Shown: piece by piece, positions 5,530 through 43,255 of the stretch
Layout of the letters: the number at the start of each line of letters is the position of its first letter
Position numbering within the stretch: position 1 is the stretch's first letter
Source of the DNA: Leclercia adecarboxylata
GTDB taxonomy: Bacteria > Pseudomonadota > Gammaproteobacteria > Enterobacterales > Enterobacteriaceae
DNA: 64,000 nt
Direction: 5' to 3'
Assembly: GCF_006874705.1 (NCBI RefSeq)
Contig: NZ_CP035382.1
Span: forward strand, 1,860,001 to 1,924,000
The notes under the pieces: generated by a model
The model's database searches: none
What the model was told of the DNA's origin: nothing
Seen by the model: only the letters and a program-made list of their open reading frames with translations
Made by a program: the position numbers and the translations under genes

Positions 5530-6492
5530 CTAACGCAACGGCGGGCCGTATAACGCCTTGATGGTCTTTCTCAGCCAGAGGATTTTGGGGTTGTGGCTGT
5601 TACGCTTATGCCAGATCAGGGTGAAGGGCACGGTGAGCTTCAGTGCCTGCGCCTCATCAATGGGGATCGGTAGGGTAACCAGCTGCCGCTGGTGGAGCTG
5701 ATTGTAGTGATGGCAGTAGTGCGGGGCGGTGGCAATGTAGTTATGGCCCGGCTGCGCCGCCATAAACATCGATTGCTCAAAGCCGGGCAGGCTCATGGCG
5801 ATATTGCGCGTACGCCCCATCTCTCTCAGCACTTCATCCAGCGCCCAGGTGTCGCTACGCTCCCAGAAGATACTGATATGCGGATAGCGCAGGAAGGTTT
5901 CGAGGTTCCACTCCTCCTGTAGCGCAGGATGATCTTCGCGCAGATAGACGCACGGGCGATCGCTGAACAAAATTTCGTAGTCAATAAACCACGGCATCAG
6001 CTTTAACAGCTCGCGGGAGCGGGGATGTGTTTCGCGCCCGGTAAAGCCGAGATCGACCTCCCCGCGGGTTATGGCGTCCAGCGAATCATAATCCCAGTGG
6101 CGCATCTTCACCGTGGCCTGCGGATAGCGCTGGTTCACCTGTTCCAGCAGGGCATTAAAGCGGATCAGCATCAGCGGGGTTTCCGCCGCCAGCTCAAACG
6201 TCAGGCCGCCGGGGGAGTCAGGGTGAAATTTATCGAGGATCTGGTTGCCTATCTGCATCCAGTCGGCCAGATCCTGTTCCAGACTCACCGTCAGCGGCGT
6301 CGGCAGCAGCCCCAGCGGAGTCTTCACAAACAGCGGATCGTCAAACCAGTCGCGCAGCTTCGCCAGCGATTTACTCACCGCGGAAGGGGTAACGTTCATC
6401 CGTTTCGCGGCCTTGGTGACGCTGCGTTCCTGCAGCAAAAGCTGCAGGCACAACAACAGGTTAAGATCGAGACTGCTGAGGGGCTTCTTCAT
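5530..6492 (-). CDS. yidZ: YidZ, LysR-family regulator
   Basis: 320 residues. An N-terminal winged helix-turn-helix ([24 protein letters not shown], about residues 22-45) is followed by a LysR effector-binding domain. In E. coli, YidZ has been linked to anaerobic nitric-oxide resistance; its effector is not established. The ATG at 6490-6492 ([11 protein letters not shown]) is used; the longer open frame has no support. Its first 32 bases overlap the end of mdtL on the same strand, so the two are translationally linked. Confidence 0.92.
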
Positions 6493-40861: not shown

Positions 40862-40951
40862 TCACTTAACGTATTTCAGGACAGCATCAAGCAGTTGCAG
40901 TGCTGCAACAATGAGTTTGAGGATAAGTACAACCATATCCACTACGCTCAT
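40862..40951 (-). CDS. tisB: TisB, SOS-induced membrane toxin peptide
   Basis: 29 residues, the same length as E. coli TisB, sharing the core LILKLIVAALQLLDAVLKY. A single hydrophobic helix with Asp5, Lys12, Asp22 and Lys26 (the charge-zipper type) inserts in the inner membrane. There it dissipates the proton gradient and promotes dormancy and persistence under DNA damage. It is too short for usual gene finders. A LexA box lies about 205 bp upstream and IstR-pairing sequence lies in its leader. Confidence 0.95.
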   Translation of the reverse strand: MSVVDMVVLILKLIVAALQLLDAVLKYVK

Positions 40952-41141: not shown

Positions 41142-41173
41142 AGTATAGATAAATACTGTATATATGAACAGTG
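41142..41173 (-). promoter_or_regulatory. LexA box and tisAB promoter, interrupted at its edge by an intron
   Basis: CTGTATATATGAACAG (41156-41171) is a near-ideal 16-bp LexA operator. On the minus strand it overlaps the -35 (TTCATA, 41163-41168), and the -10 is TATACT (41142-41147), placing the tisAB start near 41135. The group II intron begins at 41173, so the outermost base of the 20-bp box (A) is replaced by the intron's G, while the 16-bp core and the promoter are intact. Confidence 0.88.
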
Positions 41174-43081
41174 TGCGCCGGGAGACCGGTAGAGATCAAG
41201 GGGTGAAAGTCCCCGACCATTGAAGGACCAGCAATCCACAAGGTCCCCGAGTCATGCGTTGCATACCGCGAGGTATGGGGCGAAGCGTTGACAGGGGTGT
41301 TGACAGGCCAGCCATTGAGCCACGAAATGTATATTAAATTACCGGGTGCCGACGTTGTACTGTTAACGGAAGGCAACATCATAGGGTGCGATACTGCGAG
41401 TGCCACATGGACCCGGCGGGGTCTGAGACCCTGGCATGTCAATACGATCTCTACGCGGGAACCGGGAGATCTCCCCTCTGACCATCTGCCAGTGTCGGAG
41501 ATGGCCCGCACCGGGAAGACGAGGAGTCATAGCCGGTGATGTACGGAGAGGAGAAGTCGGACTCGCTCATAGTAGCGGCGAAGCAGGCGAACAACCCGAA
41601 AGGAGCGGAGTCAGTGGAGCGAAGGAGCGGGGCCAAGGGGAACGCGGAACAGCCACACATGCGCCGGACACAGAGCCGGGAAAGCATGTCACAGAGGCTG
41701 TCACGCGTGCGGGAAGCTGCGAAGCAGCGGAAGAAAGAACGGTTTACAGCATTGTTCCACCTGCTGACAGTCGAAGCACTGGAAGCCGCATTCCTCTCCC
41801 TGAGCAGGAAAGCGGCCGCCGGAGTGGATGGCATCAGGTGGATGGACTACGCCGGAAACATGAAGAACAACATAACAGATCTGCACCGGAGGCTACATCA
41901 GGGCAGCTACAGGGCGCAGCCCGGCAGGCGTCACTACATCCCAAAAGCGGATGGAAAACAACGCCCGCTCGGCATCGCCTCGCTGGAGGACAAGATCGTC
42001 CAGTATGCGCTGGTGAAAATCCTGAACGCAGTCTATGAAAACGACTTTATGGGGTTCTCATACGGGTTCAGACCCGGGCGAAGCCAGCACGATGCACTGG
42101 ACGCACTGGCCACAGGGCTGGTACGCACTAACGTAAACTGGGTACTGGATGCCGACATCAGTCAGTTCTTTGACAGGGTGAGCCACGAATGGCTGATCAG
42201 GTTCACAGAGCATCGGATCGGCGACCGGAGGGTAATCAGGCTCATACGTAAGTGGCTCACAGCCGGGACGTCGGAGGAGGGTCAATGGCGAGCAACGGAG
42301 GAAGGCACCCCACAGGGTGCGGTCATCTCACCGCTGCTGGCAAACATATACCTCCACTACGTCTTCGATCTGTGGGCGCATCAGTGGCGACGTCGCTATG
42401 CCACAGGCAATGTGGTAATGGTCAGATACGCCGATGACATCGTCATCGGGTTCGACAAACGATACGATGCCCGGCGCTTCCGTATAGCCATGCAGCGCAG
42501 ACTGAGGGAGTTCGGACTCACGGTTCACCCGGAGAAAACCCGTCTGATGGAGTTCGGCCGCTTCGCTGCCGAAAACCGTGCCATCAGGGGAAAAGGCAAA
42601 CCAGAAACGTTCAACTTCCTCGGGTTCACGCACATCAGCGGGAAAGATCGCAACGGCAGGTTCATGCTGATACGAAAGACCCGCCGGGATCGGATGACGG
42701 CAACTCTGAAAGCCATCAAAGACGGTCTGCGAAGGCGCTGGCATTACTCAATCCCCGAACAGGGAAAATGGCTCAGGAGAGTGGTTCAGGGATACCTGAA
42801 CTATCACTCGGTACCGGGCAACTTCCCCACCATGCAGAAGTTCAGGACACACGTAACAAACCTCTGGCGCCGGGCGCTCAGGCGCAGGAGCCAGAAGGAT
42901 GATACGACCTGGACGAAAGCAAACAAACTGGCAGCCGCATGGCTACCAAGGGTTCGGGTTCTTCATCCATGGCCTGTGGAGCGGTTCACCGCCAGACACC
43001 CGAGGCAGGAGCCCGGTGCGTAAATCGCGCACGCCGGGATCTGTGCGGGGGGTATCCGGTAACGGGTATCCCTACCGCGAC
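41173..43081 (+). mobile_element. Group II intron inside the tisAB/istR LexA box
   Basis: 1,909 bp. The 5' end GTGCG fits the GUGYG rule. Domain I hairpins begin at once (GCGCCGG.., AAGGGGTGAAAGTCCCC), and the domain IV ORF is a reverse transcriptase. Domain V (43009-43042) overlaps the ORF end and has the AGC triad and a stem AGCCCGG..CCGGG. Domain VI (43043-43081) is a GC-rich hairpin with a bulged A eight bases from the 3' end, which finishes in AC. Precise removal joins ..GAACAGT to AATTTATGG and rebuilds the LexA box TACTGTATATATGAACAGTA. The intron runs in the istR direction. Confidence 0.92.
41539..43023 (+). CDS. ltrA: Group II intron reverse transcriptase/maturase
   Basis: 494 residues (GTG at 41536 would add one). 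The reverse-transcriptase core includes AAAGVDGIRW, the RT2 to RT4 region YIPKADGKQRPLGIASLEDKIVQ and FMGFSYGFRPGRSQHDALDAL, then GTPQGAVISPLLANIYLHYV and the catalytic MVRYADDIVIGF. A maturase (X/thumb) domain spans about residues 350-460 (KPETFNFLGFTH...YLNYHSVPGN). There is no HNH endonuclease domain after the maturase, as in class C and some other bacterial classes. Such introns use hairpin targets or replication-fork DNA. The stop codon lies inside intron domain V. Confidence 0.95.
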   Translation: MYGEEKSDSLIVAAKQANNPKGAESVERRSGAKGNAEQPHMRRTQSRESMSQRLSRVREAAKQRKKERFTALFHLLTVEALEAAFLSLSRKAAAGVDGIRWMDYAGNMKNNITDLHRRLHQGSYRAQPGRRHYIPKADGKQRPLGIASLEDKIVQYALVKILNAVYENDFMGFSYGFRPGRSQHDALDALATGLVRTNVNWVLDADISQFFDRVSHEWLIRFTEHRIGDRRVIRLIRKWLTAGTSEEGQWRATEEGTPQGAVISPLLANIYLHYVFDLWAHQWRRRYATGNVVMVRYADDIVIGFDKRYDARRFRIAMQRRLREFGLTVHPEKTRLMEFGRFAAENRAIRGKGKPETFNFLGFTHISGKDRNGRFMLIRKTRRDRMTATLKAIKDGLRRRWHYSIPEQGKWLRRVVQGYLNYHSVPGNFPTMQKFRTHVTNLWRRALRRRSQKDDTTWTKANKLAAAWLPRVRVLHPWPVERFTARHPRQEPGA

Positions 43082-43087
43082 AATTTA

Positions 43088-43116: not shown

Positions 43117-43178
43117 CAAATGCGTCAAAATCCGTGCCGTAAATTGCGCGTTCCCGTGCGATCGCGTATACTTCGTGC

Positions 43179-43255
43179 GTTGACGTAACACAGTGTGCAC
43201 TGCGGTCACCAGCCGCAAACGCTGTAAAAATAACCTCGCTTCGGCGGGGTTTTTT
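43179..43255 (+). ncRNA. istR: IstR-1 antisense RNA (antitoxin of TisB)
   Basis: The promoter TTGCGC (43144-43149), 17-bp spacer, TATACT (43167-43172) starts the RNA at G43179. The RNA begins GTTGACGTAACACAGTGTGC, identical over 20 nt to the complement of the tisAB leader, as in E. coli IstR-1 (75 nt). It ends in the terminator AACCTCGC-TTCG-GCGGGGTTTTTT. It blocks the tisB ribosome standby site and guides RNase III cleavage. IstR-2, from an upstream start, contains the same 3' part. Confidence 0.93.

Follow-up and report, generated by a model that had tools for sequence, protein, structure and literature searches.

Three types of target have been named for bacterial group II introns, namely homing sites, terminators and attC sites (PMC4424553). 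The group II intron considered here lies in a stretch of 64,000 nucleotides of the Leclercia adecarboxylata genome (contig NZ_CP035382.1, positions 1,860,001 to 1,924,000 of the forward strand; hereafter the window), and its homing site is very probably an operator of the SOS repressor LexA. The element itself is known. Over 1910 bases it is 100% identical to the copy of Kl.pn.I5 on plasmid pK245 (NC_010886.1), where >90% identity marks the same intron, and this match led us to drop an assignment to the integron-associated Kl.pn.I3. Kl.pn.I5 was named by Leclercq & Cordaux (2012), with the copy on the Klebsiella pneumoniae plasmid pK245 as reference; the homing site was inferred from three copies by comparing the exon-binding sites (EBSs) with the intron-binding sites (IBSs), and K. 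pneumoniae MGH was scored as lacking a free site (PMC3522654). The main text of that paper, which treats the same element, contains none of the strings LexA, SOS or palindrom. Kl.pn.I5 is also listed as Se.ma.I1 on ColE1-type plasmids (PMC6764390). It is mobile today, since two insertions are reported within a single hospital outbreak (PMC8269217); in that report the string 'lexa' occurs only in the name of an author. Both the element and a homing site based on three copies have thus been published, and in the literature searched, outside which most subscription papers lie, we found neither the LexA box named as the target nor a description of such targeting by any group II intron.

IIC and IIC-attC introns resemble the window intron in lacking an endonuclease and in being specialised on a recurrent genomic motif and not on one gene (PMC4424553, PMC7923331). 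The window intron differs from them in having a 6-bp EBS1 together with an EBS2, and a regulatory operator as its target. RmInt1, a IIB intron of Sinorhizobium, also has no endonuclease, and reportedly homes to an insertion sequence (IS) element rather than to a repressor operator. It prefers the lagging-strand template (PMC5010178), and three of the four copies on the large contig of the Leclercia genome have this orientation, with the direction of replication taken from a single oriC-like and a single dif-like match, although these copies are too few to weigh. The E. coli introns E.c.I1, E.c.I3, E.c.I4 and E.c.I9 target IS elements and likewise spread by way of a repeated target (PMC3522654), whereas the window intron uses a site of protein binding that recurs across the genes of a stress regulon.

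We conclude with high confidence that Kl.pn.I5 is a mobile group II intron, with no detected endonuclease domain and IIB-like exon recognition, for which the LexA operator serves as the homing site. The operator has the consensus CTG-N10-CAG, and the boxes referred to below are predicted operators. Insertion is exact, falling between TACTG-N10-CAGT and a following A, and the right half-box and centre match EBS1 (ACUGUU) and EBS2 (UGUAUA). The features of the site and of the intron are as follows.

41154..41172, + strand: LexA box TACTGTATATATGAACAGT, read from the sequence; the same box is found in intron-free relatives
41161..41166, + strand: IBS2, TATATG, within the LexA box, read from the sequence
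41167..41172, + strand: IBS1, AACAGT, within the LexA box, read from the sequence
41173..43081, + strand: group II intron Kl.pn.I5, from its ends, an Rfam match and identity to the pK245 copy
41206..41431, + strand: ribozyme domains D1-D4 (RF02005, group-II-D1D4-6; Rfam cmscan, E 1.4e-55)
41328..41333, + strand: EBS2, UGUAUA, from a shuffle scan over 11 introns and from the related intron L144 (UGGAUA against TATCCA, 6/6)
41359..41364, + strand: EBS1, ACUGUU, complementary to IBS1 AACAGT and covarying in relatives
41536..43023, + strand: intron-encoded protein (IEP), a reverse transcriptase (RT)/maturase of 495 amino acids with a GTG start and YADD, from profile matches
43009..43041, + strand: domain V, conserved in four relatives
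43042..43081, + strand: domain VI with its bulged A at 43074, from an alignment with four relatives
43082, + strand: first 3' exon base, A, with which the 20-bp extended LexA box ends, from the sequence and intron-free relatives

An initial annotation, made from the sequence alone, had placed a group II intron inside a LexA operator of the tisB/istR locus. The intron, the box and the locus agree with the Rfam matches (RF02005 and RF01400) and with the junction sequence, and the box is indeed the insertion site. The word 'inside' is imprecise: the intron follows base 19 of the 20-bp extended box, at its 3' edge, with GTGCG beginning at 41173, so that the CTG-N10-CAG core (CTGTATATATGAACAG, 41156-41171) is intact. 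The upstream flank is present in 56 of the 60 genomes searched within the genus, the intron's own genome included. Among 19 other loci that were fetched, 18 carry CTG-N10-CAGT followed without a gap by the downstream sequence of the window or a homologue of it, and so match the site rebuilt by joining the flanks; the 19th intron-free locus (L255) has CAGG in place of CAGT. The adjoining genes of the window are these.

40862..40951, - strand: tisB, a 29-amino-acid SOS-induced type I toxin of the host bacterium, divergent from the intron, read from the sequence; the E. coli counterpart is annotated tisB
43123..43255, + strand: istR antitoxin RNA (RF01400, E 3.5e-20)

In the same genome the intron is present five times, at 99.9-100% identity, each time preceded by a CTG-N10-CAGT box. 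When TACTGTATATNNNNACAGT was sought there with at most one mismatch, 15 matches were obtained at 13 places, 12 of them on the large contig, one match having CAC for CAG; the reversed-pattern control gave none. Four introns thus occupy four of the 12 near-consensus LexA boxes of the large contig. The other eight are free (for example C3:4722542, 4057244, 3500662 and 4267137), and the targets there are unsaturated.

A wider census drew on scans of species genomes and viral contigs together with annotated records, in all 296 loci. Alignments of at most 88% identity (L062, L065, L077, L132, L144) or beginning after intron base 12 were excluded before counting. This left 203 junctions of >88% identity and, once two artefacts (L058 and L233, aligned from intron base 9 with no intron start before it) had been taken from 91 flank strings, 89 distinct 30-base upstream flanks. 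CTG-N10-CAG ends 81 of these 89. Grouped by the sequence preceding the box, the box-site flanks fall into 35 clusters at 70% identity and 47 at 80%. The eight flanks without a full box comprise a fragment (L023, CTATGTATATATACAGT), one with GTG for CTG before a GyrI-like gene (L057), one with ATG for CTG (L160), the type in which an intron stands behind an intron (L086/L097), two whose left half contains an IS end (L224 and L240), and two, L222 and L223, which alone lack a LexA-like palindrome.

The genes adjoining the boxes include umuD (chromosomal, plasmid and viral-contig), tisB/istR in E. coli, a DinI family gene, a GyrI-like gene and the phage family phrog_3893, whose function is not known. 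One start near a box resembles a colicin by eye. Matches to the intron occur in 4288 of 72,556 plasmid records and in 219 of 5426 complete E. coli genomes. A plasmid sample was formed by taking every sixth of 60 matches listed, i.e. ten out of 4254 records matching over the first 300 bases; CAGT precedes the intron in all ten and a full box in nine, the exception being L240 with its IS end, and a umuD-type gene adjoins the intron in seven (five umuD, one impA' and one labelled LexA repressor). The E. coli sample, 18 records opened of about 240 matching, was not systematic; most were picked as chromosomal, and L222 and L223 were chosen because their entries named a host gene under the match. 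Here 16 of 18 introns are at a box site, 15 with a full box, and the sites comprise six at umuDC, three at tisB/istR (L224 among them) and seven others. The earlier proposal that the LexA box is the target, with copies across SOS genes, is thus borne out by the 81 flanks and by their umuDC, tisB/istR and dinI-like neighbours. A variant of 92-93% identity and one of at least 99% have an identical flank at two sites, one of them judged from 157 bases.

How the box is read can be addressed by pairing. EBS1 (ACUGUU) is the complement of AACAGT at -6 to -1. In relatives with unrelated targets the EBS1 loop covaries with the exon (CTGTTG with CAACAG, TGGATG with CATCCA, TCCGTG with CACGGA and TAAGCG with CGCTTA). 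Over 11 introns, the ten non-window members of which have other IBS1 sequences, EBS1 and IBS1 form 56 of 66 pairs compared with 30.1 for shuffled flanks, a value reached in none of 2000 shuffles and lowered by a wrong EBS1 anchor in two of the 11 (L065 and L077). EBS2 and IBS2, in their best register of -12 to -7, form 44 pairs compared with 29.9, again reached in 0 of 2000 shuffles; a plain complement search for EBS2 at one site finds 5-mers only. A 6-bp EBS1-IBS1 pairing with EBS2-IBS2 at -12 to -7 is exon recognition of the IIB type, and the intron is thus predicted to read the right-hand two thirds of the box by IIB-like pairing.

LexA targeting is not confined to copies of >88% identity, as L144 shows. 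This intron is 74% identical to that of the window (72% for the IEP), and its best plasmid matches are Burkholderia cenocepacia records. Its site, TACTGTATATCCATACAGT followed by A, is a LexA box, and its EBS1 (ACUGUA) and EBS2 (UGGAUA), at the same positions as in the window, pair 6/6 with TACAGT and TATCCA, respectively. L317, which comes from a Cupriavidus plasmid and shares 81% identity with L144, has the site CTGTATGAATATACAGT and an EBS1 of ACUGUA; read by eye, UAUUCA complements its IBS2, TGAATA. Three other relatives found with L144 (L298, L299 and L321) sit elsewhere and have other IBS1 sequences. The EBS changes of the Burkholderiales introns suggest that the predicted pairing has tracked local LexA boxes. 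L144 and L317 raised our already high confidence in the LexA operator as homing site a little further. As far as sequence comparison can tell, LexA targeting is a regular and strongly supported habit of Kl.pn.I5, itself a known element, and two diverged Burkholderiales introns share the target. Further relatives, H248-H250, are 82-92% identical to L144.

Several points weigh against this assignment. The independence of the flanks is incomplete, with 28 of the 81 in the largest cluster at 70% identity, and some E. coli records share one site (the six at umuDC and the three at tisB/istR). Two copies lie away from any LexA box, L222 within a gene for a BCCT transporter and L223 at gltS. The EBS2 register is the best of a scan over positions, and UAUUCA of L317 lies, by eye, about four bases further on than the EBS2 of the window. 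Nor does the predicted pairing alone decide orientation: at 56 of the 81 sites the orientation used pairs better, ten are ties and 15 pair better the unused way. The asymmetry of the box centre is weak, a difference as large as that observed arising in 157 of 5000 orientation flips. The reader of the left half-box, finally, is a candidate only, the RT/maturase being favoured as the simplest. The flanks of L222 and L223 nonetheless end in CAGT and their 3' exons begin with A, which makes them informative for a minimal target rule.

In the mechanism that we infer, a lariat ribonucleoprotein (RNP) would reverse-splice into the strand matching its EBSs, and the left half-box would be read by something other than EBS pairing, most simply by the RT/maturase. 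Priming of the complementary DNA would, as with RmInt1, make use of a nascent strand at the replication fork. In keeping with a role of the RT/maturase at the left CTG, IEPs contact a few distal bases of the 5' exon (PMC3522654); LexA or an open promoter may be the reader instead. An unlikely alternative is that EBS pairing alone sets the target and that LexA boxes dominate as selection removes the copies that land in coding DNA. In favour of this, IBS2-IBS1-A differs little from a LexA half-box, and among eight free TATNNNWACAGTA sites in the window's own genome three have a full box, one a near box (TTG for CTG) and four none. These four boxless sites are nevertheless empty, L280 being an exact TATAAAAACAGTA, compared with four of 12 near-consensus boxes filled on the same contig, although the numbers are small; the TATNNNWACAGTA pattern is, moreover, not enriched, with eight free sites against 16 matches of the reversed control.

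It is rather improbable that the LexA repressor or an open SOS promoter supplies the specificity for the left half by recruiting the RNP or exposing single-stranded DNA. Such a role would account for the CTG at -17 to -15, which lies outside both EBS pairings and yet is found in 81 of the 89 flanks, and for a TTG at -42 in 46 of the 81 box sites, 17 bp before TACTGT, as in a promoter with TTG at -35 and TACTGT at -10. TTG stands at -41 in two box sites and at -43 in one, and other offsets from -60 to -21 have at most four each; these counts use two slightly different sets of 81, and part of the signal comes from kindred flanks in the largest cluster. On the other side are the two copies at non-LexA sites and the behaviour of another intron, Ll.LtrB, for which loss of LexA hardly alters homing (81-87% of wild type; PMC3636086).

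The remaining alternatives turn on the class of the intron and on its history. The group II intron of the window (41173-43081, + strand) is complete, being 1909 nt in length with GTGCG at the 5' end and GCGAC at the 3' end. It has domains D1-D4, a domain V, a domain VI with a bulged A, ends of the form GUGYG..AY and an RT with maturase, as a bacterial group II intron should. Domain V, the bulged A at 43074 and the GCGAC end at 43081 are conserved in an alignment with four related introns. The initial annotation had noted a bulged A in domain VI and had placed correctly the 3' end and the start of domain V at 43009; the end of domain V, given as 43042, is read here as 43041. The Rfam D5-D6 model RF00029 has no match in the window at E<=1, although some relatives match it. 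The IEP matches the NCBIfam model group_II_RT_mat (TIGR04416) at 1.6e-112 and the GsI-IIC RT at 8.1e-43 by phmmer; no endonuclease domain was found, Pfam at E<=1 giving RVT_1 alone. Among the 3' flanks listed, most have A as the +1 exon base and a few have G or T.

The mechanism first proposed for this site was of class C, with the palindromic box extruding as a stem-loop that is recognized by shape. We consider this highly improbable and rejected it as the main mechanism. The LexA box is a palindrome, and IIC introns do insert after terminators or attC stem-loops (PMC4424553). IIC introns, however, have an EBS1 of 3-4 bp, no EBS2 and a stem-loop in place of IBS2 (PMC7923331), an arrangement not found here, where a 6-bp EBS1 is accompanied by an EBS2 and both show compensating changes. 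The hairpins predicted for the boxes have little stability (-2.6 kcal/mol on average, from -0.1 to -4.9), and copies occur at poorly palindromic boxes (CTGGATATAATTACAGT and CTGGTTATACATACAGT) as well as at the two non-LexA sites. Nor do the ends GTGCGCCGGGAGACC and CCCTACCGCGAC resemble the IIC consensus, which is 5' GUNYGCCNRGCAUGG and 3' CCUACYCGAU (PMC4028801); the 5' end leaves it after ten bases. The proposed target was therefore right but the mechanism is not supported, since the layout is IIB and not IIC and the box hairpins are predicted to be weak. That a few old insertions were simply inherited and spread on related plasmids and prophages is barely credible, for although the sampled plasmid copies are mostly at umuDC (7/10), there are 35 flank clusters, two new insertions are reported from one hospital outbreak (PMC8269217) and LexA boxes also host the diverged Burkholderiales introns.

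Because the intron enters at the 3' edge of the operator, the operator core stays intact after insertion, and in roughly half of the cases (46/81) the promoter-like -35/-10 pair is spared too. In these cases the intron lies at or just past the predicted start of an SOS transcript, and might be transcribed with it and then removed by splicing. With TACTGT as the -10 element, transcription would begin some 6-8 bases before the junction, giving an RNA with IBS1 but hardly IBS2. A ribosome-site-like sequence with a start codon at most 40 bases on, in the direction of the intron, is seen in 37 of 59 readable 3' flanks, the pattern being a loose one; the introns at plasmid umuDC are directed away from umuD. 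SOS-driven expression of the intron is plausible on this promoter layout. Tentatively, and with some doubt, we suggest that Kl.pn.I5 and its Burkholderiales kin might be SOS-coupled retroelements, for which the operator is both address and switch. Each copy would then be under SOS control through a LexA box overlapping the promoter -10, splicing would remove the intron from the SOS mRNA and so preserve the gene, and expression would coincide with DNA damage, conjugation or prophage induction, which would also supply single-stranded targets.

A transcription-factor operator as homing site would add a new way of spreading to those described. LexA boxes are dispersed, conserved by host regulation, imported by plasmids and prophages that bear SOS genes, and spared in their core by the insertion. 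The element is common on plasmids of Klebsiella and relatives; placed at one exact position of the LexA box in nearly every copy examined, it can move into one DNA-damage gene after another without breaking up the core of their switch. The matches in plasmid records and E. coli genomes given above mean that real isolates carry it at SOS genes such as umuDC and tisB/istR.

Some individual loci are of interest in themselves. Introns stand head to tail at one box in L151 (also L086), with starts at 6088, 7997, 9906 and 11815 and a spacing of 1909, and two do so in L177/L097. IBS2-IBS1 is intact before an inserted copy, and the site may thus be hit again; an assembly artefact is also possible. The IS end GGGAAGACCCATA (ISKox3, ISL3-like, annotated in L224) lies in the AT-rich centre of the LexA box in both L224 and L240, so that both elements use the same operator. 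In the 3' flank of L107 two LexA-like boxes stand in tandem, the intron in the first and the second free. In E. coli 88_1577 (L294, ~2500) the intron occupies a LexA box immediately next to a dif-like sequence, with hipBA lying upstream. A contig labelled Arthrobacter mobilis (L061) carries a near-identical intron adjoining a bacteriocin-like gene; its actinobacterial label probably reflects enterobacterial contamination. Finally, the relatives L030, L031 and L034 have IEPs that are about 34-36% identical, belong to the family RF02005 and have 5' exons ending in GCGTTA, an ending similar to those of integron attC sites.

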